Source of the DNA: Micromonospora sp. Llam0
GTDB taxonomy: Bacteria > Actinomycetota > Actinomycetes > Mycobacteriales > Micromonosporaceae
Direction: 5' to 3'
DNA: 64,000 nt
Assembly: GCF_003751085.1 (NCBI RefSeq)
Contig: NZ_RJJY01000001.1
Location: 4,278,001 to 4,342,000 of the forward strand
The notes under the pieces are model-generated. The model was given only the letters and a program-made list of their open reading frames with translations. It had not been told where the DNA came from and did not search any database. The position numbers and the translations under genes are program-made. This document shows positions 12,771 to 45,808 of this stretch, piece after piece. Position 1 is the first letter of the stretch. The number at the start of each line of letters is the position of its first letter.

Positions 12771-12789
12771 TGCGAGACAGTGTCTCGCA
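12771..12789. promoter_or_regulatory. operator A of the shared GTCTCGCA motif
   Basis: TGCGAGACAGTGTCTCGCA is a perfect palindrome with one central base. It lies between the divergent Rieske and formamidase genes and is the most symmetrical member of a motif found before seven catabolic transcription units in the window. Confidence 0.75.
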
Positions 12790-12994
12790 CTCCGATGCTG
12801 CTATCAGAGCCCTCTGCCTGTCAAGAGCAGGGCATCTTCCGTGATCGGGTTACTCACTGTTAACAGGACAGCAACATGTTCCTGCGGGTTCGCCGGAAAC
12901 GATCCGGTCATCCACCCAGCACCCGGCCCGCCAGCGGCACGCACCGCCGCGCGCCCTGCGCCCACCCGGCCGGGTACCCCTTCCGGAGGAACCG

Positions 12995-14101
12995 ATGCTC
13001 CAGCCGCACCAGGGACCGATCGCCGGCGCCCACTACCTGCCGACCACGCCCGAGACCTGCCTGTGGGGCCGGCTGCCCAACCGCAGCCACGCCCCGGTGC
13101 TGCGGGTCCGCTCCGGTGAGACCGTGACCATCGACACCCTCAGCCACGAAGGCATCCTCGAAGACCAGGGCCGCGACCCGGTCGGCTACCTCAAGCAGTA
13201 CGACGTACCCGCCGACGGTGTCCTCGCCGACGCCCGCGACCTGGCCGCCTCCGACGTCGCCCACGACTACGACGACGACGGCCCGCACGTGGTCACCGGC
13301 CCGATCACCGTCAACGGCGCGCAGCCCGGCGACCTGCTCCGGGTCGACGTGCTCGACCTGACGATCCGGGCCCCGTACGGCTTCGTCAGCAGCCGGCACG
13401 GCTACGGCGCGCTACCCGGCGAGTTCCCGCTCACCCCGGTCGACACCGGGCCGGGCAGCGACCCGCGCGCCTACGGCAGCGTCTGCCACTTCACCGAGGT
13501 CGCCTCCAGCGGCGGCCGGCTGTACGGCGTCCTGCCGTTCGGCGCCGGCCGGGCCGCCCGGTTCCCGCTCGCGCCGTTCCTCGGCCTGATGGGCGTCGCC
13601 GTCGACACCGACGAGATGGTGCACTCGGTGCCGCCCGGCGGGCACGGCGGCAACCTGGACATCAACGAACTGCAGGTCGGCTCCAGCCTCTACCTGCCGG
13701 TGCAGCTGCCCGGTGCCGGCTTCTACGCCGGCGACCCGCACTACGCCCAGGGCGACGGCGAGGTGGCGTTGACCGCGCTGGAGGCACCACTGCGGGCCAC
13801 TCTGCGGTTGACGGTGATCCCGGCGGCGCAGGCCGCGACGCTGATCGGTGCCGGCGAGGCCCCGCTGGCCGAGACCGCCACCCACTGGATCCCGGTCGGC
13901 CTGGACGCCGACCTCAACGAGGCGATGCGCCGGGCGGTCCGCGCCGCGGTCGACTTCCTGGCCCGCACCCAGGGCATGCCCCGCGACACCGCCCTGGCCT
14001 ACCTGAGCGCAGCCGCCGACTTCGAGGTCAGCCAGGTCGTCGACGCGGTCAAAGGCGTGCACTGCCTGATCCGCAAGGCCGACTTCCCCGCCCAGATCTG
14101 A
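12995..14101 (+). CDS. acetamidase/formamidase family amidohydrolase
   Basis: 368 aa FmdA/AmdA-type hydrolase releasing ammonia from formamide or short amides. Diagnostic segments: ITVNGAQPGDLLRVDVLDL, VPPGGHGGNLDINELQVGS and FYAGDPHYAQGDGEV. ATG 12995 follows GGAGGA by 4 bases. It is divergent from the Rieske operon across operator A, so both should be induced together. This suggests the degraded compound yields formamide or a related amide. Confidence 0.9.
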   Translation: MLQPHQGPIAGAHYLPTTPETCLWGRLPNRSHAPVLRVRSGETVTIDTLSHEGILEDQGRDPVGYLKQYDVPADGVLADARDLAASDVAHDYDDDGPHVVTGPITVNGAQPGDLLRVDVLDLTIRAPYGFVSSRHGYGALPGEFPLTPVDTGPGSDPRAYGSVCHFTEVASSGGRLYGVLPFGAGRAARFPLAPFLGLMGVAVDTDEMVHSVPPGGHGGNLDINELQVGSSLYLPVQLPGAGFYAGDPHYAQGDGEVALTALEAPLRATLRLTVIPAAQAATLIGAGEAPLAETATHWIPVGLDADLNEAMRRAVRAAVDFLARTQGMPRDTALAYLSAAADFEVSQVVDAVKGVHCLIRKADFPAQI

Positions 14102-14310
14102 GGGCGGTGGCGCGGTCGGGGCCGCACACCGTCGTCCGCGCCGCCGGGCGCACTGTGGACGCGCTGCTGGCGAGGATCGCCAGCGGCCTACGGCGGGGCA
14201 CCGACGTCACAGCGTCGGCGTTCGTCCGGGTCGAGGTGCGCCACCCGGACGGGCGGCTGGCGGCCCTGAGCAACCCGGTCACGCTGGTCCGATCCACTCG
14301 TGGCGTACGG
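14102..14310 (+). pseudogene. possible C-terminal remnant of a CehA/PHP-type hydrolase
   Basis: After the formamidase stop the + strand stays open and reads VTASAFVRVEVRHPDGRLAA, then LSNPV. This resembles the end of CehA/McbA-type PHP metallohydrolases, which close with a YVRxEVR...ALTNPI pattern. There is no upstream catalytic part and no good start. I treat it as a gene fragment; a short unrelated ORF is possible. Confidence 0.35.
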
Positions 14311-14348
14311 TCGGGCGTGATCTGTTCCGACGCCGACCGGGGTACGCC

Positions 14349-15527: not shown

Positions 15528-15528
15528 T

Positions 15529-16250: not shown

Positions 16251-16252
16251 GG

Positions 16253-18406: not shown

Positions 18407-18784
18407 TCACCCCTGAGCGGCGGGACGCCAGGCGTGCGCCAGGAAGTCGGCGCGGGGCGGGGCGAACACGTCCAGGTTGATGCACGGGCCCTCGGTCGGC
18501 TCGACGTAGTGCTCGGCGCCGCGCGGCACCAGCAGCATCGAACCCGCGCTCATGTCGTGCGGTACGCCGTCGACGTAGTAGTTGCACCGGCCGCCGAGGA
18601 TCATCACCAGCTGGTCGAAGTCGTCGTGGGTGTGCGGGTTGAGGGCCATCCCGACGCTGAGCTCGTGCCAGGCGAGCACCACCTCGTCGGTGGCGTACAC
18701 CTTGCGTCGCACGCCGGGGCGCACGTCGGTGGCGGGGATCTCGTCCCAGTTGACCGAGGTGCGGTAGAGCTGCGGGTTCAGCAC
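18407..18784 (-). CDS. cupin-domain protein
   Basis: 125-aa single-domain cupin. The metal-binding motifs are NPHTHDDFDQLVMILGG and VPRGAEHYVEP. The GTG start at 18784 has GGGAG 6 bases upstream, and the gene sits between the aldolase and ribokinase genes with a 4-bp gap to the latter. Such cupins in catabolic operons act as isomerases, dioxygenases or ligand-binding proteins; nothing here decides which. Confidence 0.8.
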   Translation of the reverse strand: MLNPQLYRTSVNWDEIPATDVRPGVRRKVYATDEVVLAWHELSVGMALNPHTHDDFDQLVMILGGRCNYYVDGVPHDMSAGSMLLVPRGAEHYVEPTEGPCINLDVFAPPRADFLAHAWRPAAQG

Positions 18785-18809
18785 GTCCGGGCTCCCTTCG
18801 AGGGCTGGC

Positions 18810-19610
18810 TCAATTGTCGGTGGCGAGGTGGCGCAGGCCGGCGCCGAGCAGCTGCAGGTCGGAGCCGGCGACCAGATAGTTGGCACCGGCGAGGCCGTAC
18901 CGGCGCAGAATGTCGGCGGCCCGGCCCGGCGCCCACCCGCCCAGAGTGACCCCGGCGGCGCGGGCGGCGTCGGCGATCTCACCGACCCGGCGCAGCAGCG
19001 GTGCCTGGTCGTCGGTGGCGGCCAGGCCGAGGCTGACCGCCAGGTCGGTGGTGCCGGCGAACGCCACGTCGACGCTGGAGCTGCCGGCCCCGCCGGTCAG
19101 CAGGTCGGGCAGCGGGTCGTCGGTGTCGGCGGTCTCGATCTGGGCGACCAGCAGCGGCGGGTCGGCGGCCTCGGCGGCCAGGTAGGCGTCCAACCCGGCG
19201 GACCCGTAACCGGCGGCCGGGTGGGCGAGGCTGATGCTGCGCCGGCCGGCCGGCGCGTACCGGACGGCGGCGTGCAGCGTGTCGAGCTGCGCTCGGGCGC
19301 GGACGGTGGACAGCTGCACCCCGGCGGCTCCGGCCTCGAGCAGCCGGTTGACCTGCGCCGGGTCGACCGCTGCCAGCCGTACCAGGGCCGGCAGGCCGAG
19401 CAGTGCGGCGTGCCGCAACTGCCCGGCGGCGGTCCGCTCGTCCAACCCGGAGTGCTCCAGGTCGACCACCACGAAGTCGAGGCCGGCCTGGGCGGCCAAC
19501 TCGACCGCGTCGGTGCCGGGCAGCTTGAGGAAGGTGCCGACCACCCGCCGGCCGCGCCGCAGCCGCTCGCGCAGCGCCGCCCGGCCGGTGTGCACCCCGG
19601 TACGCATCAC
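18810..19610 (-). CDS. HpcH/HpaI-type aldolase
   Basis: 266-aa class II pyruvate-type aldolase. Typical segments are GTFLKLPGTDAVELAAQAG and DFVVVDLEHSGLD with the metal-binding acidic residue, then NRLLEAGAAGVQLSTVR. The family splits 4-hydroxy-2-oxo acids to pyruvate plus an aldehyde, often the last step of meta-cleavage pathways. GTG 19610 or the adjacent ATG 19607 may be the start; GAGG lies 7-10 bases before. It follows the amidohydrolase gene and precedes the cupin gene in the same operon. Confidence 0.85.
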   Translation of the reverse strand: MMRTGVHTGRAALRERLRRGRRVVGTFLKLPGTDAVELAAQAGLDFVVVDLEHSGLDERTAAGQLRHAALLGLPALVRLAAVDPAQVNRLLEAGAAGVQLSTVRARAQLDTLHAAVRYAPAGRRSISLAHPAAGYGSAGLDAYLAAEAADPPLLVAQIETADTDDPLPDLLTGGAGSSSVDVAFAGTTDLAVSLGLAATDDQAPLLRRVGEIADAARAAGVTLGGWAPGRAADILRRYGLAGANYLVAGSDLQLLGAGLRHLATDN

Positions 19611-19619
19611 GGTCGGTCC

Positions 19620-20807
19620 TCAGCCGGCCCGGCCGGCTGCACCGGCCTGGTCGGTGGGCAGGCCCCGCCACGGTACGGTCGGCACCCGCTCGCCGGCCAG
19701 CAGCACCAGTTCCGGCTCCAGCCGGGGCGCGGTGATCTGGTTGCCGGCCGCGTCGGGCAGCACCGCCTCGTCGGCGTCGGCGAGTACGGTGACATGCGCC
19801 GGGCCACCTTCGACGAGGCTGCCGTAGCCTTCGGCGTCCAGGCCGGTCAGCCGGGCCGGGGCGCTGGTCACCCGGGGCACGATCTGCTCCATGGTCATGC
19901 CCAGCGCCCGCAGTTTGGCCATGCTGGTGACCAGGTCGAACACCGGGCCGCGCCAGTTGCGGGCCGAGGTGTCCGAGGTGATCACGTCCGGGTAGAAGCC
20001 TTGCGCGATCGCCGGTTCGGCCACCGTGAAGCTGAGGTTGCTCTTGCCGTGCGCCGACTCGAACAGCACGCCACGCTCACGGGCGGCGTACACCTCGGGC
20101 AGCACGGTGCCGTCGGCCATGATGCCGTACGGCTTGCCGGTGTAGCAGTGCGCGACGACGTCGCCGGGGCGCAGCATCTCCAGCACGGCCGGCAACGGTT
20201 CCGGGGTCTCCCCGATGTGGATCATGAGCGGCAGGTCGGCGTCGGCGGACAGCTCCAGGGAACGCTTGAGCAGCGGCCGCCAGTTGTGCCCGACGACGTC
20301 CTCGGAGAGCCGGATCTTGAAGCCGCGGACCCGGTGCGGGTTGTCGGCGGCGACCGCGAGGGCATCCTCGATCACCAGGGTGTCCGGGTTGATCAGCTCG
20401 CCGAACCGGAAGTCGATCAGCCCGAGCACGCTGACGTTGAGGAAGTTGACCAGCCGCAGCTTCGCCGGCACGGCGACGTACCGCTCAAAGGCCGCGAAGG
20501 TGGAGGCGCCGACGGTGCCGGCGTCGCAGGCTGCGACGACGCCCCGGTGCAGGTGCGCCTCGTCCGGCGGGGCGCCGACCTTGGACACCTCGGCGAAGAT
20601 ATGGGTGTGTCCCTCGACCAGGCCGGGCAGCACGTACCGGCCGGCGCAGTCGACCACCTCGCGGGCGTCGGCGGCCAGGCCGGGAGCGATCCGGGCGATC
20701 CGGTCGCCGGTCACCGCGACGTCGGCGACCTGGCTGGCACCGGTGGCGGAGTCGAAGACCTCACCACCGGCCAGCACCAGGTCGTACCGGGGAGCATTCT
20801 CAGTCAT
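19620..20807 (-). CDS. amidohydrolase/deacetylase family metallohydrolase (EF_0837 group)
   Basis: 395-aa TIM-barrel amidohydrolase. The first metal pair is GLVEGHTHIF, and AHCYTGKPYGIM carries a later His. FESAHGKSNLSF, QGFYPDVITSDTS and GPVFDLVTSMAKLRALGM follow the EF_0837/Atu3266 subgroup. Members hydrolyse N-acyl amino acids or cyclic amides; the substrate here is unknown. The start shares one base with the FAH-protein stop, in the operon driven from site B. Confidence 0.85.
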   Translation of the reverse strand: MTENAPRYDLVLAGGEVFDSATGASQVADVAVTGDRIARIAPGLAADAREVVDCAGRYVLPGLVEGHTHIFAEVSKVGAPPDEAHLHRGVVAACDAGTVGASTFAAFERYVAVPAKLRLVNFLNVSVLGLIDFRFGELINPDTLVIEDALAVAADNPHRVRGFKIRLSEDVVGHNWRPLLKRSLELSADADLPLMIHIGETPEPLPAVLEMLRPGDVVAHCYTGKPYGIMADGTVLPEVYAARERGVLFESAHGKSNLSFTVAEPAIAQGFYPDVITSDTSARNWRGPVFDLVTSMAKLRALGMTMEQIVPRVTSAPARLTGLDAEGYGSLVEGGPAHVTVLADADEAVLPDAAGNQITAPRLEPELVLLAGERVPTVPWRGLPTDQAGAAGRAG

Positions 20808-21712
20808 CAGTCAGCGGACTTTCTGTGCGAAGGAGAGGACGGCGCCACCGTGTCGAGAGTTCCGTCGGGGGTTTCGGCGCAGAACCGGGTACGCAGCGGC
20901 AGTACCCCGCCGACCGAGACCTCGACCAGGTCGCCGGGGCGCAGGAAGCAGCCCCGGTCCTGGCCGGTGCCGGCCGGAGTGCCGGTGAGCACCACGTCGC
21001 CGGGTTCCAGCACCACGTACTTGGTGATCCAGGCGAGCAGCTGCGGCACCGGGAAGATCAGGTCGGCGCTGGTGGCCTGCTGGCGTACCTCGCCGTTGAC
21101 GGTGGTCCGCACTTCGATGGCGTCGCGGTCGGCGACGGCGGCGATGTCCAGCACCGAGGTGCCCAGCGCGCCGAAGCCGGGGAAGCTCTTGGCCAGCGTC
21201 GGGTTGGCCGAGGCGGTCATCACGTCCCGGGCGGTCAGGTCGTTGGCGGCGGTGATCGCCGCGACGTGCGACCAGGCATGCTCGGCCGGCGTACGGTGCA
21301 TCCGGGCCCCGATGACCAGCGCGATCTCGCCTTCGTAGTCGGGTTGGGTGCTGATCGAGCTGGGCAGCGCCACGGTGGCGTCCGGGCCGGAGCCGGCGCT
21401 GGCCGACTTGAGGTAGAGCACTGGTTCGGTGGGGACGGCCCGGCCGGCGGCCCGCGCCTTGCAGTGGTAGTTGAGGCCGACCCCCCACACCGCCCGGGTG
21501 CTGCCCAGCGGGGCGACCAGCTCGGCGGTGACGCTGTCCAGCGGCAGTCGGTCGCGGGCCGGCGCGTCGGCGGCCGGGGCCAGACCGGCGCCGGCCCGCA
21601 GCAGCTCGGCGACGTCGCGGTACGGCAGGTCGAGCAGTTCGGCGGTGCCGTCGCCGCAGATCCGGGCCAGACCGCGCCGGGTGGCGAGCAGCTGCAGTCC
21701 GGGGGCGCTCAC
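20807..21712 (-). CDS. fumarylacetoacetate hydrolase family protein
   Basis: 301 aa. The FAH fold shows [13 protein letters not shown], the metal-binding [13 protein letters not shown] (Glu-x-Glu type) and [10 protein letters not shown]. The family hydrolyses acylpyruvates or hydrates/decarboxylates 2-oxo acids in aromatic degradation. The GTG start overlaps the reductase stop by 4 bp. With HpcH aldolase downstream it fits a lower meta-cleavage or gentisate-like branch. Confidence 0.88.
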
Positions 21713-22689
21713 GCGGCGTCCGAGGAGTGGCCGGGCACGGTGCTCAGCGCCGGGTTGACCAGCGGTGCCAGGTTGTTGACGGCGGCGGCGGCCTCACCGA
21801 AGCCGACCGAGATCAGCCGCACCTTGCCGGGGTAGTCGGTGACGTCACCGGCGGCGTAGACCCGGGGCAGGCTGGTCCGCATCGACCGGTCGACGGTGAT
21901 GTGCCGTTTGGTCATCTCCAGCCCCCACTGTTGCATCGGGCCGAGGTCGGCGATGAAGCCGAGGGCCGCCACCACCGCCTGGGCGGGCAGTTCCTCGCGC
22001 CCTTCACCGCGTACCTCGCTGATCGTCACCGAGGTCAGCTGCGGGTCGCCGACGATGCCGCTGACCTCGTACGGGGTGACCACCCGCACGGTGGAGGCGT
22101 GCAGCTGCTCGACGCTGCGTTCGTGGGCGCGGAACTGCGGCCGGCGGTGCACCAGGGTGACGCTGGCGGCGTACGGCTCCAGGGCGAGCGCCCAGTCGAC
22201 GGCGGAGTCGCCGCCGCCGACCACGACGACCTGCTGTCCGGCGAGCTCCTCCAGCCGGGGCACGAAGTAGCGCAGTCCACGACCGAGGTAGTCGCTGCCG
22301 ACCGGCAGTTCGCGCGGGGTGAAGGTGCCGATCCCGGCGGTCAGCAGGACCGCCTTGGCGCGCATCCGGCTGCCGGTGTCGGTGCCGATCAGGACGTGGT
22401 CGGCGGCGTTGGTCAGCTCCACGGCGCTCTCGCCCAGCAGGAAGGTGGGTTTGGCGGTGGCGGCCTGGGTGAGCAGGTCGTCGACGAGCTGCTGACCTTT
22501 GATCGCCGGTAGGCCGGCGATGTCGTAGATGTCCTTCTCCGGGTAGAGGGCAGCTATCTGTCCGCCCGGTTCGGGCAGCGAGTCGATGATCGCCACGGTC
22601 ATCCCGCGGAAGCCGGCGTAGTAGGCGGCGTACAGGCCGGCCGGGCCGGCGCCGATGATGGCCAGGTCGACGTCGTGTTCGGCGGTCAT
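21709..22689 (-). CDS. thioredoxin-reductase-like ferredoxin-NADP reductase
   Basis: 326-aa FAD/NAD(P) oxidoreductase. FAD loop [16 protein letters not shown] is near residue 10, the NADPH loop [14 protein letters not shown] near 160 and the second FAD motif YAAGDVTDY near 290. It lacks the CxxC of thioredoxin reductases, as expected for TrxR-like ferredoxin reductases. It overlaps the ferredoxin gene by 4 bp. Together they should feed electrons to the Rieske dioxygenase at 11-13 kb or to another oxygenase of the region. Confidence 0.88.
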
Positions 22690-23000
22690 GAGCCGGCGCT
22701 CCCGGCGACGGCCGGGTGGTCGCGACCGACCCGGCCGATCTTGCGAGCACCGCCGGGGGCACCGATCTCACCGAAGAACTCGGCGTTGATCGGGCCGAAG
22801 TGGGCCTGGTCGGCCGGCAGATCGTCCAGGTGGAAGATCGAGGTGACCGGGCAGACCGGTTCGCACCGGCCGCACTCGACGCACTCGTCGGGGTTGATGT
22901 ACATCATCCGGTCGCCCTCGTAGATGCAGTCCACGGGGCATTCCTCGACGCAGGAGCGGTCCTGTACGTCCACGCATTCGTCGGTGACCACGTAGGTCAT
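22686..23000 (-). CDS. fdxA: FdxA-type 7Fe ferredoxin
   Basis: 104 aa. N-terminal cluster region [19 protein letters not shown] and the classic [12 protein letters not shown] match the 3Fe-4S/4Fe-4S ferredoxins of actinomycetes. It has GGAGG 4 bases before the ATG. It is the first gene of the seven-gene operon ending with ribokinase and is paired with its reductase. The promoter region carries motif site B. Confidence 0.92.
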
Positions 23001-23129: not shown

Positions 23130-23153
23130 CAACATGCGAGACGTCATCTTGGA
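23130..23153. promoter_or_regulatory. operator B of the shared motif
   Basis: TGCGAGAC (23135-23142), on the minus strand AAGATGAC followed by GTCTCGCA and TGTTGA. It lies between the divergent ferredoxin operon and the M20-like gene. A second half-site GTCTCGC occurs at 23042-23048 and a GTGACGTCAC palindrome at 23095-23104. Confidence 0.6.
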
Positions 23154-24524: not shown

Positions 24525-24542
24525 TGCTGTCTCACTTTCCGT
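24521..24542. promoter_or_regulatory. operator C of the shared motif, before the IclR gene
   Basis: ATGATGCT followed by GTCTCACT (24529-24536), 90 bp before the IclR start. It resembles sites B and D in the ATGATGC/AAGATGC left part, which suggests autoregulation of the IclR gene. Confidence 0.5.
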
Positions 24543-33485: not shown

Positions 33486-33534
33486 CTCGATAGTCGGGTC
33501 AGGCAGTGGATTCAGTGGTACGGGCGGTGACGGG

Positions 33535-34614: not shown

Positions 34615-34625
34615 AGCTGTTCCTT

Positions 34626-36101: not shown

Positions 36102-37126
36102 GGCCGGATCAGGATCTTGCCGACGAGGTCACCGGACTCCAGCCGGGCGTACGCCGCGGGCAGGTCGGCGAGCGGGTACTCGGCTCCCCGGACCACCCGC
36201 AGCCCGCCCGCGAAGTAGGCGTCGAGCATCGCGGCGAAGTCGGCTGGGGCGTACGCGCCAGCGCCGAGCAGGCGCAGGCCCTGGTGGTAGACCTGGGCCA
36301 GCGACAGGCTGACCTGGTCGCCGCTGGTGTTGCCGAGCAGCACCAGCCGGCCGCCGGTGCGCAGGCTGGCCAGGGAGCTGTCCCAGGTGGCCGCACCGAC
36401 GTGGTCCAGGACCAGGTCGGCGCCGTACCCACCGGTGTGCTCCCGGACTCCGGCGGCGGTCCGGTCGTCCAGGTCGAGCACCACGTCGGCGCCGAGTTCG
36501 ATGGCGGCGGCCCGCTTGGCCGCGCTGCGGGCCACCGCGATCACCCAGGCGCCGCTGGCCCGGGCGAGCTGGATGGCGGCGATGCTGACCGCGCTGGTGG
36601 CGGCCTGGATCACCACGGATTCGCCGGAGCGCAGGGTGCCGACCCGGTGCAGGGCGTGCCAGGCGACGCTCCAGGCGGTGGGCAGTGCGGCAGCGTCGGC
36701 GAGGTCGACGTGGTCGGGGACCCGGTGGGCGACGGCGGCCGGTACGGCGACGTACTCGGCGAAGCCGCCGGGGCGGTTGCCGCCGACGACGCGCAGCGTG
36801 GCGCAGTAGCCGGGGTTGCCGCCGACGCAGGCGGAGCAGTACCCGCAGCCGATGGTGGGGTCGAGCACGACCCGCTCGCCGGTGCGCAGCGTGCCGACCT
36901 CGGCGCCGGTGGCGACCACCTGTCCGGCGACGTCCATGCCGGCGACGTGCGGCAGCGTGAAGCCGGGGAGCAGGCCGGGCCCGCGCAGCTGGAGCAGGTC
37001 GAGACGGTTCAGCGCGGCGGCGCGGACGGCGACGACGACGTCGGCCGGGCCGGGCTCGGGGTCCGGCAGGGCGCGCGGCCGTACGACTTCGGGGCCACCG
37101 AAGTCGGTCTGAACCATCGCTCGCAC
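36098..37126 (-). CDS. zinc-binding alcohol dehydrogenase/quinone oxidoreductase family protein
   Basis: 342-aa MDR-superfamily enzyme: LPHVAGMDVAGQVVATGAEV, the structural-zinc loop GCGYCSACVGGNPGYC and a degenerate cofactor loop ATSAVSIAAIQLA (instead of GxGxxG). GTG 37126 is preferred to the more upstream codon at 37150 because GGAGG lies 6 bases before it. It is the first gene of the BMP importer operon, with motif site G 34 bp upstream. The substrate is probably a carbonyl or alcohol intermediate. Confidence 0.85.
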   Translation of the reverse strand: MRAMVQTDFGGPEVVRPRALPDPEPGPADVVVAVRAAALNRLDLLQLRGPGLLPGFTLPHVAGMDVAGQVVATGAEVGTLRTGERVVLDPTIGCGYCSACVGGNPGYCATLRVVGGNRPGGFAEYVAVPAAVAHRVPDHVDLADAAALPTAWSVAWHALHRVGTLRSGESVVIQAATSAVSIAAIQLARASGAWVIAVARSAAKRAAAIELGADVVLDLDDRTAAGVREHTGGYGADLVLDHVGAATWDSSLASLRTGGRLVLLGNTSGDQVSLSLAQVYHQGLRLLGAGAYAPADFAAMLDAYFAGGLRVVRGAEYPLADLPAAYARLESGDLVGKILIRP

Positions 37127-37150
37127 CCTTGGCCTCCACTGGTCTACCAA

Positions 37151-37176
37151 ACAATATGCCGTCTTGCATTGTGATT
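37151..37176. promoter_or_regulatory. operator G of the shared motif
   Basis: ACAATATGCC followed by GTCTTGCA (37161-37168) and TTGTGA. It is located just ahead of the quinone oxidoreductase/BMP operon in a locally AT-richer stretch. Confidence 0.6.
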
Positions 37177-37308
37177 CGCGCTGCTTAGCGACGTACTTTG
37201 CCTGCGCTCCGGCGGCCTGTCAACGCCTCGACCGAAACTGGCTCAGCTACGTAACGTGCCCGTGATCCAAGCCGGCGCAACCGGGCGGAAATCGCCATCG
37301 ACCTGCGG

Positions 37309-38490
37309 TTATCCGCCGTCGGCGGCAACGATCAGCAGCTCCCGCGCGACCAGCGCGGTACGCAGCACGGCAGCGGTCGACGGATCCAACGGATCCACCC
37401 CCAGCAGCCGCTTGATCAGACCCACCCGGTAGCCGACGGAGTTACGGTGCAGATGCAGTTGTTCACTCACAGCTTGCCTGCTTCCCCCGGTCGCCAACCA
37501 GTGGTCCAGGGTGCGGAGCAGGTCGTCGCGCTGCGCGATCGGCCCCAGGTGCCGGTCCACGTACCAGCGCAGCCGGTCCGACGGAACGGCCAGCAGCAGT
37601 TGCGCCAGACCGGCCCGCTCGAACGGCAGCTCGGCCGGCTCCGCCGCCGGACTGTTACGCAGCAGCAGCCGCAGCAGCAGCCGGGCGTCCCGAAACGAGT
37701 CCGGGGTCGCGGCCGGGCCGGTCACCGACCGACCGCCGGCCACCCGGACCTGGCCGGCACCGACGATCTGTTCCAACCGGCCGCGCAGCCGGGCCACCTC
37801 CCGCTCGGCGTCGCCCTGCAGCAGGGTCCACCCCAGCCGACCGTCGGCCAGCACCGGCCGGTCCAGCCAGGTCAACGCGGACGCCCACCGGCGGCGCTGG
37901 GTGCCGGTGTAGCCGAGCGCCACCGCCGCGTGCGGCCGGTCCAGCCGCCACCGGTACGCCGCAGCGGCCCGCACCAGGTCCGCCTGACCGGCCGGTGACC
38001 GGTCACCGGTGCCGTCGCGCAGCGCCCGCAGCAGCCCGTCGGCACCCACCGGCGCCGACGGCTGCGGCGGCTCCCGGCGTACCGCCTCGATGAGCAACGC
38101 GGTGACCGCGGCCCGGGCGTAGTCGAGCTGGCCGGTCCCGACCGGCTCGGCCAGCAGCAGGACACCGAGCCGGCGGCTGCCCGAACCCACCGGCACCGAC
38201 CGGCCGAGCCAGCCGTCGGCGCAGCGCACCCGGTCGCCGCGCAGCGCCCCCGGGTCGACGACGGTGCTGCCGCTGGTGCTGTCGCTGGTGGCCAGCAGCT
38301 CGCCGGTCTCGGCGACCAGCCGGCAGTCACGGCCGGTGGCCTCGGCCAGCCGGGCCAGCAGCACCGGCCAGCCGGCACCGCCGAACGCGAGGTCGGTCAG
38401 CCACTGGGCGAACTGGGCCGGCGTCGGGTCGGCGGCCACGGCCAGCCGGGGCCGGGCAGCCGGCACCGGACCGTCGGCCGCCCCGGTCAC
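37309..38490 (-). CDS. PucR family transcriptional regulator
   Basis: 393 aa. The N-terminal half lacks a clear fold; a GGDEF-like segment lies around 200-300. The C-terminal PucR helix-turn-helix is RQAVSEQLHLHRNSVGYRVG followed by LIKRLLGVDPLDP. PucR-type proteins activate purine or other nitrogen-compound catabolism. GTG 38490 overlaps the aldehyde dehydrogenase stop by 4 bp (GTGA), so it is transcribed from site D. It probably acts on the adjacent importer/amidohydrolase operon. Confidence 0.85.
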   Translation of the reverse strand: MTGAADGPVPAARPRLAVAADPTPAQFAQWLTDLAFGGAGWPVLLARLAEATGRDCRLVAETGELLATSDSTSGSTVVDPGALRGDRVRCADGWLGRSVPVGSGSRRLGVLLLAEPVGTGQLDYARAAVTALLIEAVRREPPQPSAPVGADGLLRALRDGTGDRSPAGQADLVRAAAAYRWRLDRPHAAVALGYTGTQRRRWASALTWLDRPVLADGRLGWTLLQGDAEREVARLRGRLEQIVGAGQVRVAGGRSVTGPAATPDSFRDARLLLRLLLRNSPAAEPAELPFERAGLAQLLLAVPSDRLRWYVDRHLGPIAQRDDLLRTLDHWLATGGSRQAVSEQLHLHRNSVGYRVGLIKRLLGVDPLDPSTAAVLRTALVARELLIVAADGG

Positions 38491-39956
38491 GTCGGCGATC
38501 GATCGAGCAGCCGGACCGCGACGGCCTTCTCCTGGGTGTACTCGCGCAGCGCCGCGTACCCGCCACCCCGGCTGAACCCGCTCTCCTTCTGCATGTTGAA
38601 CGGGAACCCGATCACCCCGGCGTCGTGGAACTGGTTGACCGCCACCTGGCCGCTGCGGGCCTGGCCGGCCACCCGCAACGCCCGGGACACGTCCGAGGTC
38701 CAGACGCAGGTGAGCAGCCCGAAGTCGGTGCCATTCATGATCGACACCGCCTCCTCGGTGGTCCGGAACCCCTGCACGGCCAGGACCGGGCCGAAGATCT
38801 CCTCGCGGGCCAGCCGCATCGTCTCGTCGACCCCGTCGAACACGGTCGGGGCCACGTACCAGCCGTCGCCGAACTCGGCCGTGGCCGACTCCCCGCCGGT
38901 GACCAGCCGCGCCCCGGAGCCCGGCGCCTCGGCCAGGAAACCCCGGACCCGTTCGTACTGGGCCTGGCTGACCAGCGGGCCCATGTCCAGGTCCTGCTCC
39001 CACGACCCGACCCGGATCTCGGCCATCGCGGCGGCCACCCGCTCGACCACCTCGGCCCGGATCGACTCCTCGACCACCAGCCGGGACCCGGCGTAGCAGT
39101 TCTGGCCGGCGTTCTCGGTGATCGAGGCGACGATCGCCGGGACGGCGGTGTCCAGATCCGCGTCGGCGAAGACCACGTTCGGCGACTTGCCGCCGAGTTC
39201 GAGCTTCACCGGGACCAGGTGCTCAGCGGCGGCGCGCATCACCGCCCGGCCGGTGACGGTCGAGCCGACGAAGCTGATGTGGTCGACGTCCGGGTGGCCG
39301 GTCAGCGCCACACCGGCCTCCGGGCCGAGCCCGGTCACCACGTTGAGCACCCCGGGCGGCAGGCCGGCCCGGCGAGCCAGCTCGGCCAGGGCGAACGGGG
39401 CGAGCGGGGCGATCTCGGACGGCTTGAGCACCACCGTGTTGCCGGCGGCCAGCGCCGGGGCGACGTTCGCGGCGGTGAGCACGGCCGGCACGTTCCACGG
39501 GATCACCACCGCGCAGACGCCGTACGGCTCCGGGCGGGTGTAACCGAAGTAGTCAGGGGTACGGGTGGGCAGGGTGACCCCGGTCAGCTTGTCGGCCGCA
39601 CCGGCGAAGTAGTCGACGATGCCCTGCGCGATGTAGATGTTGAGCCGCCCGCCGGAGCGAGGTTTGCCCACGTCACGAGCCTCATGGGCGGCGAGTTCCT
39701 CGACGTGGGCGGCGATCAGGTCGGCCCACCGGCGCAGCGCGGCGCCGCGTTCGCTCGGCGAGGTCGCGGCCCAGCCGGGGGCGGCCCGACGGGCGGCGGC
39801 GACCGCGCGGTCCACGTCGACGGCGCGGGCCCGGGCGACCGGCTGGATGCTCTGCCGGGTCGCCGGGTCGAGCACCGGAAGTTCGCCACCGTCGGCGGCC
39901 GCCTCCCAGGCACCGTCGATCAGCTGGCGGGCAGCGGGAATGTCCAGGTCAGCCAT
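38487..39956 (-). CDS. NAD(P)-dependent aldehyde dehydrogenase
   Basis: 489 aa ALDH: IPWNVPAVLTAANVAPALAA, the general base Glu in KLELGGKSPN and the nucleophile Cys in ENAGQNCYAGSR (about 297). It is closest in style to gamma-aminobutyraldehyde or betaine-aldehyde-type enzymes. It is divergent from a zinc alcohol dehydrogenase gene across site D. The two together would oxidise an alcohol to a carboxylate. Confidence 0.9.
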   Translation of the reverse strand: MADLDIPAARQLIDGAWEAAADGGELPVLDPATRQSIQPVARARAVDVDRAVAAARRAAPGWAATSPSERGAALRRWADLIAAHVEELAAHEARDVGKPRSGGRLNIYIAQGIVDYFAGAADKLTGVTLPTRTPDYFGYTRPEPYGVCAVVIPWNVPAVLTAANVAPALAAGNTVVLKPSEIAPLAPFALAELARRAGLPPGVLNVVTGLGPEAGVALTGHPDVDHISFVGSTVTGRAVMRAAAEHLVPVKLELGGKSPNVVFADADLDTAVPAIVASITENAGQNCYAGSRLVVEESIRAEVVERVAAAMAEIRVGSWEQDLDMGPLVSQAQYERVRGFLAEAPGSGARLVTGGESATAEFGDGWYVAPTVFDGVDETMRLAREEIFGPVLAVQGFRTTEEAVSIMNGTDFGLLTCVWTSDVSRALRVAGQARSGQVAVNQFHDAGVIGFPFNMQKESGFSRGGGYAALREYTQEKAVAVRLLDRSPT

Positions 39957-39990
39957 GGTGGAATCCTTGACCCTCCATGTTCCGCATGTC

Positions 39991-40012
39991 AAGATGCAGT
40001 CTCGCTTTGTGA
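39991..40012. promoter_or_regulatory. operator D of the shared motif
   Basis: AAGATGCA followed by GTCTCGCT (39999-40006) and TTGTGA, between the divergent aldehyde and alcohol dehydrogenase genes. It lies 8 bp from the GGAGG of the latter. Confidence 0.65.
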
Positions 40013-40031
40013 GTACACCGGGAGGATTTGC

Positions 40032-41114
40032 GTGCGGGTCACGGCGGCGGTACTGGACAACGCGGGTGCACCGTTCACCCTGCAGGAGCTCGACCTGGCC
40101 GGACCCGGCCCGGACGAGGTGCTGGTACGCGTACACAGCGTCGGTATCTGCGGCACCGACCTGGAGTTCGCCAACTTCTTCCCCACCCCGGCGGTGCTCG
40201 GCCACGAGGGCGCCGGCGTGGTCGAACAGGTCGGCGAGCGGGTCACCGGCGTCTCGGCCGGCGACCACGTGGCGATGAGCTTCACCTCGTGCGGCAGCTG
40301 CCCGCTGTGTCTGACCGGCAGCCCGGCGTACTGCCGCAGCTTCGACGCGGTCAACTTCGCCGGCCGCCGCCCGGACGGCAGCAGCGCGCTGTCGCGCGAC
40401 GGCGAACCGGTCAACGGACACTTTCTCGGCCAGTCGTCGTTCGCCAGCCACGTGGTCGCCCCGGCCCGCGCCGTGGTGCCGGTCAGCAAGGAGATCGACC
40501 TGCGGCTGGTCGGGCCGTTCGGCTGCGGCTTCGGCACCGGGGCCGGCGCGGTGCTCAACGTGCTCCGCCCGCCGGTCGGGTCGTCGATCGTCGTCTTCGG
40601 CGCCGGCTCGGTCGGTGTGGCGGCGATCCTGGCCGCCCGGATCGCCGGCTGCACCACGATCGCCGCGGTCGACGTCAACGCCGACAAGCTGGACACCGCC
40701 CGGCTGCTCGGCGCCACCCACGGCGTCGACTCCCGTGCCGGCGACGCCAAGGAGTTGCTCGCCGCGATCGCCCCGCACGGCTTCGACTTCGCCATCGACG
40801 CCACCGGGCGCGAGCAGGTGCTGCGGACCGCGGTCGAGACCCTCGGCCCGCTGGGCCGCTGCGGCGTTGTCGGCGTCGGCCCGAGCGAGCAGATGAGCTT
40901 CGACTGGCGCAGCATCCTCAACGGGCGCAGCGTCACCGGCATCATCGGCGGTGCCAGCCTGCCCCAGGTGTTCCTGCCCAAGCTGCTCGATCTGCACACC
41001 GCCGGCCGGTTCCCGGTCGACCGGCTGCTCAGCTACTACCCGTTCGAGCAGGTCAACGAGGCGGTGGCGGCGGTACGCGGCGGTACGGTGGGCAAGGCCG
41101 TCCTGACCTTCTGA
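40032..41114 (+). CDS. zinc-dependent alcohol dehydrogenase (benzyl-alcohol type)
   Basis: 360 aa. Catalytic zinc site VGICGTDLEF and GHEGAGVV; structural zinc CGSCPLCLTGSPAYC; cofactor loop VVFGAGSVGVAAILAA. The FTLQELDLAGPGPDEVLV start and GPFGCGFGTGAGAVLNVL resemble aryl-alcohol dehydrogenases (XylB-like). GTG 40032 has GGAGG 6 bases ahead. It is paired with the divergent aldehyde dehydrogenase and upstream of the P450 fusion. A hydroxymethyl-aromatic substrate is plausible but inferred. Confidence 0.88.
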   Translation: MRVTAAVLDNAGAPFTLQELDLAGPGPDEVLVRVHSVGICGTDLEFANFFPTPAVLGHEGAGVVEQVGERVTGVSAGDHVAMSFTSCGSCPLCLTGSPAYCRSFDAVNFAGRRPDGSSALSRDGEPVNGHFLGQSSFASHVVAPARAVVPVSKEIDLRLVGPFGCGFGTGAGAVLNVLRPPVGSSIVVFGAGSVGVAAILAARIAGCTTIAAVDVNADKLDTARLLGATHGVDSRAGDAKELLAAIAPHGFDFAIDATGREQVLRTAVETLGPLGRCGVVGVGPSEQMSFDWRSILNGRSVTGIIGGASLPQVFLPKLLDLHTAGRFPVDRLLSYYPFEQVNEAVAAVRGGTVGKAVLTF

Positions 41115-41219: not shown

Positions 41220-41244
41220 AGCGAAACGTTGTCTCGCAATGTGA
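41220..41244. promoter_or_regulatory. operator E of the shared motif
   Basis: AGCGAAACGTTGTCTCGCA (41220-41238), followed by ATGTGA. It is near-palindromic (GCGAAAC against GTCTCGC) and 85 bp before the P450 fusion gene. Confidence 0.68.
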
Positions 41245-41328
41245 ACGGGATTACGCTCGGCTCCAGACACCCAGTGGCGCGGCTGGGCAACACCGCGCGG
41301 CAGCCAGCATCCGTGGAGCTAGTCCGCC

Positions 41329-43533
41329 ATGACTGACTTCGATCACCACTCCGACGTCTGCAACGCCGACCCGGTCGGCTACTACCGCGCGTACCGGGAG
41401 AAGTGCCCGGTCGGACGGACCGACGCGCACGGCGGTTTCGTCTACACCACCCGGTACGCCGACGTGGTCCGCGTCGCCCGCGACGACGACACCTTCTCCT
41501 CGGCCCGCGACGTCGCCGGCGGCGACGGCACCGCCATCGTCATCCCGCGCGGCCCCGGCCTGGAGCAGTACCCGATCGAGCTCGACCCACCGGCCGCCAC
41601 CGGCTACCGCGACCTGATCAACCCGCTGCTCACCCAGGACGCGGTCGCCAAGCTCGCCCCGATGATCGCCCGGCACACCACCCGGGTGATCGACGCCTTC
41701 GTCACCGAAGGGTCCGTCGACTTCGTCCGCGACCTGACCAACCCGCTGCCGGCCGCCGTCACCCTCGACTGGCTCGGCTTCCCCGAATCCGACTGGGCCA
41801 AGCTGGCCAAGCCGATCCACGACATCTTCGCCGCACTGCCCGGCAGCGACCGGGCCATCCGGGGCGCGCAGGGCCTGGCGTACCTGGACGAGCGGATCCG
41901 GGACCTGATCCGCGACCGGCGGGCCGAGCCCGCCGACGACGCGGTCAGCTACCTGGTCGCCCAACGCCGCCCAGACGGCGAACCCTTCAGCGTCGACGAA
42001 CTCGTCTCGGTGATCGGCCTGCTGGTCGCCGGTGGTGTCGACACCACCACGTCGCTGACCGGCTCCACGCTGGTGCACCTGAGCCGCAACCCGGAGCAGC
42101 GGCAACGCCTGATCGACTCCCCCGACCTGCTCGACGGCGCCACCGAGGAGTTCCTGCGGGTCTTCGCGCCGTCGCAGTCGATGGCCCGCACCGCCCGCAC
42201 CGACGCCAAGGTCGGCGGCTGCCCGGTCAGCGCCGGCGAACGCGTCCTCATCCCCTGGGTCGCCGCCAACCACGACCCGGCGGTCTTCCCCGAGCCCGAG
42301 CAGGTCCGCCTCGACCGCGACGCCACCCGCCACCTCAGCTTCGGTATCGGGAGCCACCGGTGCGCCGGTGCCCACCTGGCCCGGCTGATGTTCCGCGAAA
42401 TGATCACCCAGGTGCTGACCCGGCTACCCGACTACCAGGTCGTCGAAGACGGCCTCGTCGGCTACCCCACCAAGGGGAACCAGACCGGCTGGGACGCCAT
42501 CCCGGCCGTGTTCACCCCCGGCCGCCGCGCCGCCGACGCGGCGACCGGGGGTATCCCGGTGGCGATCCGCCCGGGTGGCGACCGGGACCTGGTCGTCGAG
42601 GCGGTCACCACCGTCGCCGAGCAGGTGCTGGAGGTACGGCTTACCGCCGCCGACGGTGCCCCGCTGCCGACCTGGGCACCCGGGGCCCATCTGGAGGTAC
42701 GGCTGCCGTCCGGCCGGGTCCGGCAGTACTCGCTCTGTGGCGACCCGGACGAGTCCGGCCGCTACCGGATCGGCGTACTGCGGGAGACCGCCGGCCGGGG
42801 CGGATCCGTCGAACTGCACACCGTCGCCGCGACCGGCGCGACGCTGACCGTACGCGGCCCGCGTAACCACTTCCCGCTGGTCGACGCCGACGAGTACCTC
42901 TTCCTGGCCGGCGGCATCGGCATCACCCCGATCCTCGCCATGGTCCGCGAAGCCGTCCGGCGTGGCACGCCGTTCCGCGTCGTCTACGGGGGCCGCAGCC
43001 GCGCCTCGATGGCCTTCACCGACGAGTTGGTCGCCCTGGCCGGCGACCGGGCCACCCTGCTGCCACAGGACGAGGCCGGCCTGCCCGACCTGGCCACGCT
43101 GATCGGCGGCACCGGCGACGGCGCCGCCATCTACTGCTGCGGACCCGGCGCGATGATCAACGCGGTGGAGCGGACCTGCGGCGACGCCGGGCGCACCGGG
43201 CAACTGCACGTGGAACGCTTCGCCGCCGGCGACGACCTGGAAGTCGCGTTCGACCCGGCGGCCAACACCGAGTTCGACGTGCACCTGGCCCGCACCGGGG
43301 TCACCCTGCGGGTGCCGAAGGACAAGCGCATGATCGAGGTGCTGCGCGAGGCGGTGCCCGGGTTGACCTACGACTGCGAGAAGGGCTACTGCGGTTCCTG
43401 CGAGACCCGGGTGCTGGCCGGCACGCCGGAGCACCGCGACTCGCTGCTCACCGCCGACGAACGGGCCGCCGGCCGCAGCATGATGATCTGCGTCGGCCGG
43501 TGCAGCTCCGACCGTCTGGTGCTCGACCTCTAA
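41329..43533 (+). CDS. self-sufficient cytochrome P450 fused to phthalate-dioxygenase-type reductase
   Basis: 734 aa. P450 domain (about 1-400): I-helix AGGVDTT near 234-240, ExxR at 274-277 and haem ligand Cys345 in FGIGSHRCAGAHLAR. The reductase follows: FMN site RQYSLCG near 465, NAD(P)H site GGIGITPILAM near 530, and a C-terminal plant-type 2Fe-2S domain with Cys683, 688, 691 (CEKGYCGSC) and 721. This is the CYP116B-like class, needing only NAD(P)H and O2. It is monocistronic under operator E. Hydroxylation or dealkylation of the pathway substrate is expected. Confidence 0.93.
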   Translation: MTDFDHHSDVCNADPVGYYRAYREKCPVGRTDAHGGFVYTTRYADVVRVARDDDTFSSARDVAGGDGTAIVIPRGPGLEQYPIELDPPAATGYRDLINPLLTQDAVAKLAPMIARHTTRVIDAFVTEGSVDFVRDLTNPLPAAVTLDWLGFPESDWAKLAKPIHDIFAALPGSDRAIRGAQGLAYLDERIRDLIRDRRAEPADDAVSYLVAQRRPDGEPFSVDELVSVIGLLVAGGVDTTTSLTGSTLVHLSRNPEQRQRLIDSPDLLDGATEEFLRVFAPSQSMARTARTDAKVGGCPVSAGERVLIPWVAANHDPAVFPEPEQVRLDRDATRHLSFGIGSHRCAGAHLARLMFREMITQVLTRLPDYQVVEDGLVGYPTKGNQTGWDAIPAVFTPGRRAADAATGGIPVAIRPGGDRDLVVEAVTTVAEQVLEVRLTAADGAPLPTWAPGAHLEVRLPSGRVRQYSLCGDPDESGRYRIGVLRETAGRGGSVELHTVAATGATLTVRGPRNHFPLVDADEYLFLAGGIGITPILAMVREAVRRGTPFRVVYGGRSRASMAFTDELVALAGDRATLLPQDEAGLPDLATLIGGTGDGAAIYCCGPGAMINAVERTCGDAGRTGQLHVERFAAGDDLEVAFDPAANTEFDVHLARTGVTLRVPKDKRMIEVLREAVPGLTYDCEKGYCGSCETRVLAGTPEHRDSLLTADERAAGRSMMICVGRCSSDRLVLDL

Positions 43534-43546
43534 CCGTGGCCGGCGT

Positions 43547-44358: not shown

Positions 44359-45429
44359 TCAGTTGCCCCACTCGAAGTTCGGCTCGGCGGCCTCGGCGAT
44401 CTTGAACCGGCCACCCGGCACCACGGCCACCGCGCTGCGGTCGGTGACGACGTTCTTGCCGAAGCCGTCGACCAGCGGGCGGCCGACGTCGCGCTTGAGC
44501 CACAGCCGCAGCAGGTGGCGGCGACGCTCCGGCTCCGGGTAGTCGACGTAGCCGGTCCGCGAGTGCAGGGCGGCGTAGTTCAGCAGCCACTGCACGTCGC
44601 CGGGCTGGAAGTCCATGTCCAGCGCCAGGCCCGGCTCCTGGGCGATCTCGTCGTAGAGGTGCAGCAACTCGATCTGGGCCTCGGTGAGCCGGGGCACCTC
44701 CGGGTAGTCCTGCGCCGAAAAGATCATCGAACTGCCGGCGTAGGTGCTGAAGACGCCGTCGACGAAGCTGCAGATCGGTGACAGGTAGGTCTTCGCCGGG
44801 GCATCGTGGTCCTGCTTGTACCAGTCCCAGTGCCACGGCTCGAACAGCAGCGGGGCCAGGTCGGGCCGGCGGCGCAGGATCTCGTTGTAGATGGTTGTGC
44901 CGCTGACCAGACTGCTCGACCCGCCGTCCTTCGCGGCGCGCAGGCACATCAGCGCGACGACGTCGGAGCTGTCGGAGTGGAACGGCAGCCGGTCACGCAC
45001 CCGCGACGGCAGCGCCGACGGGTCGTCGAGGGTCTTGTTGGAGGTGGCGATGACGTGGTCGAGCACGTCACCCATCTGGTTCTGCCCCATCGGTACGCCG
45101 AGGTGCAGCCCCATCAGGAAGAAGATCGCACCGGCGAGGGTGTCTCCGTACTCCTCGGTGCGCAGCCCGCGCACCAGGATGAAGCCGCGGCCCGAGTCCA
45201 TCTGCTGGGCACATTCGGCGTTGAGGTCGGCGCAGACCGGCAACGGGTAGTCGGCGGCGGTGACCGTACGCAGGTCGGGGTCGTCAGCGACGAACTTGCG
45301 CCCGACGGTCTCCAACTCGGTCCGCTCGGCGTCACTGAGGTGGTAGATCCATTCGGTGGACTTGCTCAGCTCGTCGCCGCGCCAGGCGGACGGGCCGGAG
45401 ATCGGGGCCAGGTCGATTGCGGTCGTCAT
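44359..45429 (-). CDS. TauD/TfdA-type Fe(II)/2-oxoglutarate-dependent dioxygenase
   Basis: 356 aa. Fe ligands: His151 and Asp153 in LPFHSDSSDVV, and His289 in LNYAALHSRTGY. The 2-oxoglutarate Arg is probably in PEPERRRHLLRLWL. Enzymes of the family hydroxylate or cleave C-S, C-O and C-N bonds. It lies downstream of a 41-codon gene on the same strand, with motif site F farther upstream, so both are likely part of the shared regulon. The substrate is unknown. Confidence 0.88.
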   Translation of the reverse strand: MTTAIDLAPISGPSAWRGDELSKSTEWIYHLSDAERTELETVGRKFVADDPDLRTVTAADYPLPVCADLNAECAQQMDSGRGFILVRGLRTEEYGDTLAGAIFFLMGLHLGVPMGQNQMGDVLDHVIATSNKTLDDPSALPSRVRDRLPFHSDSSDVVALMCLRAAKDGGSSSLVSGTTIYNEILRRRPDLAPLLFEPWHWDWYKQDHDAPAKTYLSPICSFVDGVFSTYAGSSMIFSAQDYPEVPRLTEAQIELLHLYDEIAQEPGLALDMDFQPGDVQWLLNYAALHSRTGYVDYPEPERRRHLLRLWLKRDVGRPLVDGFGKNVVTDRSAVAVVPGGRFKIAEAAEPNFEWGN

Positions 45430-45596
45430 GATGATGCGCTCCGAGGATCGTCGGTTCTGCTGGAAGAGTCGGCCGGTGTCCCGGGCGCGACGCGCGGTGG
45501 CGTGCGCGGACCGGTTCGGTCAGGACAGGGGTGCCGTGCCCGCCGTTGCCGCGGCATGTCAGGTGCCGGGGTGCGACGGTCGGGCGTACTCGACAA

Positions 45597-45722
45597 TCAG
45601 AACGGGGTCTGCGGGTCCCCGGCAGCGGTCCCGGGGCGCATGCCCTCGCGCGGCGGGTGGACCCGCAGCGGCTCCTCGTAACCGCGCACCAGCAATCCAG
45701 CACCTTGCGGAACTCGGATCAT
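45597..45722 (-). CDS. 41-aa peptide upstream of the TauD-type oxygenase
   Basis: The peptide begins MIRVPQGAGLLVRGYEEPL and ends GTAAGDPQTPF. It has an excellent ribosome site AGGAG 7 bases before the ATG. It is the first ORF after operator F and 167 bp ahead of the dioxygenase start on the same strand. Composition is Pro/Gly/Arg-rich, with no Cys, Ser or Lys and no transmembrane segment. I do not recognise it. It could be a leader peptide, a small enzyme partner or a modified-peptide precursor. The strong ribosome site and position argue that it is translated. Confidence 0.6.
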   Translation of the reverse strand: MIRVPQGAGLLVRGYEEPLRVHPPREGMRPGTAAGDPQTPF

Positions 45723-45787
45723 GGCGTTCTCCTGCGGCTGGGTGGTCGTGTCCCCTAGCCTAGGCCAGCACCTACCCACCGTCAACA

Positions 45788-45808
45788 GAGACGCCATCTC
45801 GCAATACG
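45788..45808. promoter_or_regulatory. operator F of the shared motif
   Basis: GAGACGCC followed by ATCTCGCA (45796-45803) and ATACGA, about 66 bp before the 41-codon gene and its TauD-type oxygenase. GAGAC and the offset ATCTC give partial dyad symmetry. Confidence 0.55.

Follow-up and report, generated by a model that had tools for sequence, protein, structure and literature searches.

The window studied here is a stretch of 64,000 nucleotides of Micromonospora sp. Llam0 (assembly GCF_003751085.1, contig NZ_RJJY01000001.1, positions 4,278,001 to 4,342,000), in which seven copies of a palindromic DNA motif stand before the transcription units of a catabolic gene cluster. We consider it likely that the seven sites are operators of a single IclR-family regulator, IclR1 (24626..25486, + strand, 286 amino acids (aa), with the IclR helix-turn-helix (HTH) and effector domains), and that the units they precede form one regulon. 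A sequence-only reading had gathered these units into one regulon under the IclR protein at 24.6 kb, and this is still the best interpretation because (i), a matrix built from the seven sites recovers such sites in other genomes, (ii), the sites are built like IclR operators and (iii), IclR1 accompanies a close relative of the cluster's P450 in all seven genomes that have one in a survey of 294. IclR-controlled aromatic regulons are well known as a kind; new are this member, its size, its spread and its tie to catabolism of the vitamin B2 type. The work provides a concrete regulator and operator candidates for the breakdown of flavin-type heterocycles, and the matrix and gene context can be used to find and delimit such clusters.

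The operator motif and its conservation

The significant unit is a 19-bp palindrome, TGCRAGAY-RNY-RTCTYGCA, written TGCRAGAYNNNRTCTYGCA. Operator A (12771..12789) matches it without mismatch as the perfect palindrome TGCGAGACAGTGTCTCGCA and lies between the genes for the Rieske oxygenase alpha subunit (- strand) and a formamidase (+). Operator B (23135..23153; one mismatch) separates a ferredoxin gene (-) from an M20-like gene (+), and operator E (41220..41238; two mismatches) sits in the P450 promoter with the -35 element inside it. Three mismatches each are found in operator D (39988..40006), in the 75-bp gap between divergent aldehyde dehydrogenase (ALDH, -) and alcohol dehydrogenase (ADH, +) genes, in operator F (45785..45803), before the genes of a 41-aa peptide and a TauD protein (-), and in operator G (37150..37168), 23 bp upstream of the start of a putative operon (-) for an ADH, an amidohydrolase and a BMP importer. 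Operator C (24518..24536; four mismatches), which precedes IclR1 and probably serves autoregulation, is degenerate and the weakest of the seven (17.3 bits); the best non-site in the window scores 10.9 bits.

All seven sites of the sequence-only reading are therefore present, and the 19-mer register puts each within 5 bp of the position first given. Its idea of a core motif stood in so far as the shared motif is real, but the unit is the palindrome and the 8-mer alone is not significant. The exact 8-mer GTCTCGCA, which had been taken as the common core, is confined among the seven sites to A (two copies), B and E, and has one further copy at 43399, inside the P450 gene; as a unit in its own right it was rejected, with five occurrences in the window against 3.69 expected and 28 of 100 shuffles as high. 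By comparison, TGCRAGAYNNNRTCTYGCA with up to three mismatches occurs eight times in the window (72% G+C) against 2.18 expected, a count that none of 100 shuffles reached, and six of the eight correspond to all the sites but C. The core CRAGAYNNNRTCTYG at up to one mismatch falls in the window exactly at these six; at up to two mismatches it shows no excess there over shuffles (16 vs 26.6). Since the consensus was derived from the same sites, these window counts are partly circular; running the window matrix on other genomes avoids the circularity.

We built a symmetric matrix solely from the seven window sites and ran it over 45 loci (L046-L090, 832 kb) around IclR1 orthologues, 22 of them close and 23 distant (L091, a 28% relative, was excluded). 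At 16 bits or more it gave 105 matches, 51 in close loci (20 of the 22) and 54 in distant ones (16 of the 23). All but four of the 105 lie at most 500 bp upstream of a gene matching a window cluster gene (50/51 in close loci, 51/54 in distant loci), and none reaches further than 20 bp into a mapped gene. Column-permuted symmetric matrices yielded means of 0.44 (close) and 1.06 (distant), with 0 of 100 as high, and 75 kb around other IclR genes, taken as 20 control loci, contained no match at 14 bits or more. Comparing the promoters of the operons between related genomes, we found that the same promoters keep their sites: in Micromonospora, Streptosporangiaceae, Rhodococcus and Acidimicrobiia they recur at the Rieske, ferredoxin/M20-like, IclR1, ALDH/ADH, P450, second ADH and 41-aa peptide/TauD promoters. 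Sites assigned to IclR1 reach 15 bits in 28 of the 45 loci, and counterparts of site C do stand before IclR1 in other loci although C itself is degenerate.

The distant loci are the stronger test, the close ones not being mutually independent, and because all these loci were picked via IclR1, the matrix test there cannot alone tie the sites to IclR1. A set independent of IclR comes from loci found through the P450 (six of the seven genomes with a close P450 relative, 320 kb). With the same window matrix it gave 27 matches at 16 bits or more (permuted mean 0.64; 0 of 200 as high) and 30 at 15 bits or more (permuted mean 1.31). In four mapped clusters resembling the lumichrome (lum) cluster discussed below, 22 matches stand before cluster units by homology-based starts, some of them within over-long called frames.

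Across the host genome (8.9 Mb, two contigs), the 19-mer at up to one mismatch occurs in two places, both in the window (A and B), and its reversed control in one. The core at up to one mismatch gives 91 places against 79 for the control, and three of its seven exact matches are window sites. The consensus alone is not genome-selective: it is conservation, not DNA alone, that marks the regulon. The per-genome presence of the consensus at up to two mismatches was tried as a test of IclR1 dependence and discarded as too noisy. At up to one mismatch, ten genomes with a close IclR1 orthologue (G000-G006, G008, G009, G036) together hold 22 matches against 8 for the control, and 31 other genomes hold 11 against 18, nine of the 11 in one genome; as a tie between motif and IclR1 this contrast is suggestive only.

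Several observations weigh against a single conserved regulon. Many of the tested loci are near relatives and hence not independent, and the P450 genes of L060 and G250 lack any upstream site of 13 bits or more. In the P450-found loci, one of the 200 permuted matrices did reach 30 matches at 15 bits, and one match of at least 15 bits (G691, 26075) falls in unmapped sequence some 4.7 kb beyond the P450. The looser consensus is barely enriched in the host genome (19 vs 12 in the control at up to two mismatches, 223 vs 204 at up to three), which also has three isolated sites away from the window, scoring 15.8-18.8 bits (L001, L003 and L007); these come from exact core matches, the only ones checked, and more isolated sites may exist. 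Their 20-kb stretches contain no cluster genes as judged by gene calling and first residues, with no domain search.

Could the motif be a chance likeness of G+C-rich promoter DNA, picked out by eye? The expected frequency of the bare 8-mer and the poor selectivity of the loose consensus would fit such an origin. The matrix matches in other genomes, however, fall nearly all before the same genes and far above the permuted matrices, which refutes chance unless something else keeps the orthologous promoters conserved, and we give this explanation almost no credit.

The regulator

IclR1 matches the Pfam families PF09339 (48.1 bits) and PF01614 (73.4 bits), both over the curated cut-offs, and has KdgR, TtgV and IclR among its relatives in the PDB. 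In aligned orthologues the recognition-helix segment of its HTH hardly varies; the Acidimicrobiia that bear the motif show small changes. A co-occurrence survey over 294 genomes of one family, probably Nocardioidaceae, links it to the cluster. A match to the fused P450 is found at 1e-120 in 13 of these genomes, seven at 61-62% identity (E<1e-290) and six at 37-41%, and an IclR1 orthologue (56-63%, E<=1e-50) occurs in exactly the same seven of the 294, with one match each. G250, which was found through its P450, has an IclR1 of 67% identity adjoining that gene.

The operators themselves bear two marks of the IclR family. Suvorova and Gelfand (2021, PMC8222616) distinguish two IclR motif types and describe operators of three boxes whose direction alternates (32 groups) and palindromes repeated in tandem at 18-22 bp (94 groups). 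Judged by eye, six of the seven positions of the window half-site GTCTCGC agree with their GKTYCRY, and the half-sites diverge with 3 bp between them, the group-2 arrangement. The first mark is a third, inverted box at spacing 3, which reaches 2 bits in 30% of the 213 distinct flanks collected around window sites and those of relatives, against about 5% of shuffled ones; among offsets 0-15 the runners-up are 1 (11%) and 5 (10%). GCGAGAC occupies this place in two G644 promoters. The window sites G (GTGATTC, 37171-37177), D (GTGAGTA, 40009-40015) and E (GTGAACG, 41241-41247) have third-box-like sequences that fit by eye only and are not among the listed flanks of 3 bits or more. The right part TTGTGA, which the sequence-only reading had noticed as common to D, E and G, sits at this very position, as GTGARN or similar. 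The second mark is tandem sites: second palindromes of at least 9 bits occur at 20 bp (seven counts) and 18 bp (two), a pair possibly counting twice, and elsewhere between 5 and 44 bp only at 5 bp (three) and 8 bp (one); L060, L082 and G680 provide examples.

The groups of that survey resemble the present sites in the diverging half-sites with a 3-bp gap, the alternating third box and the tandems about 20 bp apart, as well as in the position of sites near gene starts, autoregulation and aromatic catabolism. Operators of this group-2 and three-box type are among the closest known systems; PMC8222616 gives that of KdgR as RWWGAAACGNCGTTTCAKKA. Unlike GKTYCRY, the window half-site GTCTYGC has C where the former has T. 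The motif is absent from Table 1 of PMC8222616 and may be among the 181 groups of that paper. Seven operators over 33 kb also exceed the "one or two adjacent operons" that it calls general, and it reports regulogs of up to 55 COGs as well. IphR of Comamonas (isophthalate), whose operator is given there as GTCTCATCAGAC plus a further half-site, is likewise an IclR protein of an aromatic acid pathway with a GTCTC-type half-site and an extra half-site; the spacing and orientation differ, and the likeness drawn here is one of operators.

IclR1 has a neighbour that might read the same sites. IclR2 (25483..26262, - strand) is a 51% identical paralogue whose gene lies end to end with that of IclR1 and which could supply a second input: alone or together with IclR1, it would read the operators in Micromonospora, shared operators being answered to different ligands. 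IclR2 shares much of the IclR1 recognition helix, including ATAHRY, which speaks against assigning the sites to IclR1 alone; in Microtetraspora loci a site lies between the FAH gene and IclR2, and L082 and L088 hold a second IclR1-type copy. However, the cluster and its sites exist where IclR2 is absent. Apart from IclR1, the closest IclR of G036 and of G008 is only 33-34% identical, and the seven P450-positive genomes have a single match each at 1e-50 and so no IclR2 at that threshold. Nor was IclR2 seen in the fetched L062, L082, L084 and L086-L090, stretches that may be too short to include it. IclR2 is thus not the general reader of the sites and may be a second reader here; a role for it in reading the window sites is unlikely, with some weight left to it.

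A reader outside the IclR family is very improbable. A PucR-type regulator (37309-39003, -) is encoded behind ALDH, between G and D, a position that could suggest a role, and a PadR gene (15553-15906) and global regulators might be considered too. But five Microtetraspora clusters (L076, L077, L079-L081) have sites and nothing that matches PucR, and the sites are likewise present although PadR shows up in just four of 46 loci. The IclR-type boxes and spacings of the operator, and the presence of IclR1 in all seven of the 294 genomes with a close P450 relative, argue against all three.

Promoter geometry and mode of regulation

Promoters bearing a site, in a set chosen by hand, were aligned on the operator. 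At E, the -35 TTG[AT]CT starts at operator base 10 with the -10 17 bp on in 16 of 19 promoters (TTGTCT-N17-TACGCT in the window); by eye, the remaining three also show this -35, with the spacer lengthened to 18 bp. All 16 promoters of D have TTGAC-N18-CAAGAT with CAAGAT, the -10, inside the operator. In 23 of the 24 promoters of A, a TTGACA begins 34-41 bp before the operator, which places the operator where transcription probably begins. In every one of the 18 promoters of B, the ferredoxin promoter TTGACA-N18-TA follows the operator at a distance of 2 bp; the ferredoxin sites of L082, L084 and L088 were outside this set.

Because A, D and E each overlap a core promoter, repression is favoured and is, on this geometry, the most likely mode of action of IclR1. 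An IclR1 dimer would bind the palindrome TGCRAGAY-RNY-RTCTYGCA, and several promoters would take more than one dimer, through an extra half-site spaced 3 bp away or, in relatives, through another palindrome at 20 bp. With the operator covering the -35, the -10 or the transcription start at A, D and E, bound IclR1 would block RNA polymerase until a pathway compound, binding its C-terminal domain, releases it. IclR1 would control its own gene too, and about 25 genes would be switched together: the importer, the fused P450 and the dehydrogenases, the Rieske oxygenase with its own ferredoxin and reductase, and also the extradiol dioxygenase, pyrone hydrolase, hydratase and aldolase.

The opposite sign, with IclR1 binding the sites and activating, is unlikely. 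PobR and PcaU act as activators, and the best NCBIfam match of IclR1 is the PcaR/PcaU/PobR subfamily, at 95.5 bits against a cut-off of 284.75. Operator B, ending 2 bp upstream of the ferredoxin -35, is placed where an activator might equally sit. On the other side, A lies at the probable transcription start, E over the -35, and D covers the -10 of one gene and the TTGACA of the other, positions that favour blocking of the polymerase.

The two divergent promoters of the ALDH/ADH gap (39956-40032) look superimposed, with TTGAC-N18-CAAG on both strands; on the ADH side this arrangement is kept from Micromonospora to Acidimicrobiia, in all 16 promoters given.

Relation to the lumichrome pathway

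Sinha et al. (2025, PMC12746152) reconstitute the lumichrome (vitamin B2) pathway of Nocardioides simplex, encoded by the cluster lum. Among its enzymes are oxygenases (a single-chain P450, an extradiol dioxygenase, and a Rieske enzyme together with its ferredoxin and reductase), two dehydrogenases, a cobalt hydrolase, a cupin hydratase and an aldolase; an FAH protein, a metallohydrolase and four transport genes complete the description. We draw the likeness to lum through the clusters of G644, G680, G624 and G660, which were themselves matched to lum by description, that is by domain types and letter order. The four mapped genomes among the seven P450-positive ones have clusters that run in lum letter order to the ends of the stretches mapped, and the lum-type clusters carry the same operators as the window.

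The window holds counterparts of LumU, LumN, LumA-D, LumE, LumF and LumV-LumY and a four-gene importer. The enzymes shared with G644 are mostly 53-76% identical, and the LumU-type P450 with LumN, LumA-E and LumW-Y falls at 55-76%. Gene roles are from domain searches plus one translated gap (the cupin), and identities are to G644 proteins. The Rieske oxygenase alpha subunit (11291..12718, -; start by eye) is LumC-like (67%), and the beta subunit (10765..11397, -; open frame with an approximate start) is LumD-like (55%). Downstream, a Dabb domain gene (10446-10751) and an extradiol dioxygenase gene (9531-10439; 76%) form a LumE-like pair (9531..10751, -), both matching one 402-aa LumE-like protein in G644 and G680. 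The FdxA-type ferredoxin (22686..23000, -) is LumB-like (69%). It is followed by a putative operon (18407..22689, -) with counterparts of LumA, LumV, LumW, LumX and LumY: an FAD reductase (21709-22689, 65%), an FAH protein (20807-21712, 53%), a metallohydrolase (19620-20807, 67%), an HpcH aldolase (18810-19610, 57%) and a cupin (18407-18784, 67%; start by eye, named from its G250 counterpart and position). On the other strand, the M20-like hydrolase (23184..24524, +) is LumF-like (44%).

The putative operon behind G (29633..37126, -) opens with an ADH (36098-37126), followed by an amidohydrolase (34626-36101) and an importer resembling LumOPQR (37-56%), made of a BMP protein (about 33535-34625), an ABC ATPase (31842-33485) and two permeases (30544-31842 and 29633-30547). 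ALDH (38487..39956, -; start by eye) is LumN-like (62%), and the fused P450-reductase-ferredoxin (41329..43533, +) is LumU-like (61%). A scan of viral contigs for the P450 gave no match; besides Actinomycetota, the system extends to one Chloroflexi metagenome-assembled genome (MAG).

The window also differs from lum. For LumM and LumT, the amidohydrolase and ADH taken as counterparts share only about 29-30% identity with those of G644 (29% for the amidohydrolase in the LumM place, 30% for the ADH at 40032..41114, + strand, start by eye), and the window adds an acetamidase/formamidase family enzyme (12995..14101, +), a second ADH, an aldo-keto reductase (AKR), a SnoaL protein, a TauD-family dioxygenase (44359..45429, -) and the conserved 41-aa peptide MIRVPQGAGLLVRGYEEPLRVHPPREGMRPGTAAGDPQTPF (45597..45722, -), which is encoded downstream of F and before TauD. 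The LumF-LumN interval of the lum-type clusters holds an amidohydrolase in the LumH place and, known from G624, a 211-aa isochorismatase-domain protein (LumI). In G644 it also holds a 1191-aa molybdenum hydroxylase (LumJ), a 176-aa protein in the LumK place with a weak thiamine pyrophosphate (TPP)-enzyme match below the Pfam cut-off, a 168-aa frame without Pfam match as a possible LumL, and a second amidohydrolase (LumM). The LumH-place protein of G644 finds its best match in the window genome (G000) at 34-36%, and isochorismatase, molybdenum hydroxylase and TPP domains are not among the window genes scanned, LumI-L having been sought in the window only.

The missing LumH orthologue, the divergent amidohydrolase and ADH and the extra genes lead us to read the window as probably encoding a sister of the lumichrome pathway, for a related methylated aromatic heterocycle. 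By homology, the handling of the methylated benzene ring and the end products would be the same and the opening of the heterocycle different. As a guess, the substrate could be riboflavin itself or dimethylbenzimidazole, the ligand of vitamin B12. The clusters matching lum would be run by the same IclR regulator. It tells against the comparison that its proteins are those of G644-type clusters and not the published lum sequences, and that the LumH-place frame of G644 has 497 aa, against 80 kDa for LumH in PMC12746152.

The main text of PMC12746152 does not mention "IclR", and the literature searched contained no paper joining lumichrome and IclR and no match for a Micromonospora IclR regulon or for the domains of the gene set. 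On dimethylbenzimidazole catabolism with a Rieske enzyme, the search turned up one paper, on mycobacterial flavin biosynthesis.

The 41-aa peptide MIRVPQGAGLLVRGYEEPLRVHPPREGMRPGTAAGDPQTPF is highly conserved in Micromonospora; 13 such proteins were found, the named ones from Micromonospora and Actinomadura.

Other features

The leader of the P450 gene contains a tentative candidate for an RNA pseudoknot of the H type (41270..41298, +), which the sequence CCCAG-TG-GCGCGG-CTGGG-NAACA-CCGCGC could form. The element is nearly unchanged from Micromonospora to Microtetraspora, and L060 and G250 carry a single double change, from A-U to G-C; its weak covariation was matched by 51 of 500 shuffles, a count in which the second stem of L060 is misaligned by loop length. 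The leader has no Rfam match, and the element was not found in the P450 leader of G644. A widespread riboswitch was considered and set aside: the exact pattern occurs in at least two of 296 genomes, both times at a P450 leader, two being a lower bound since the pattern misses the G250 variant, which is in the sample.

It is tempting to speculate that an ancient IclR regulator with three-box operators governs pathways for vitamin-derived heterocycles from Actinomycetota into Chloroflexota, and that the window represents an undescribed branch with private pseudoknot control, in which another ring is stripped from a shared methylated benzenoid core, the substrate being perhaps intact riboflavin, or dimethylbenzimidazole or its riboside. 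We regard this broader scenario as possible, though rather doubtful.

In five Microtetraspora loci (L070-L073, L078), IclR1 orthologues of 78-84% identity have a site before them and no catabolic cluster in the fetched stretch; they are a second, lone IclR1 copy. Finally, about 7-29 kb to the left of the window (G000:C1:4248959-4270863; L100, L101) lie open frames of 1854, 1170 and 3864 aa, possibly a modular synthase, with an isolated operator-like site of 18.8 bits at their left edge.

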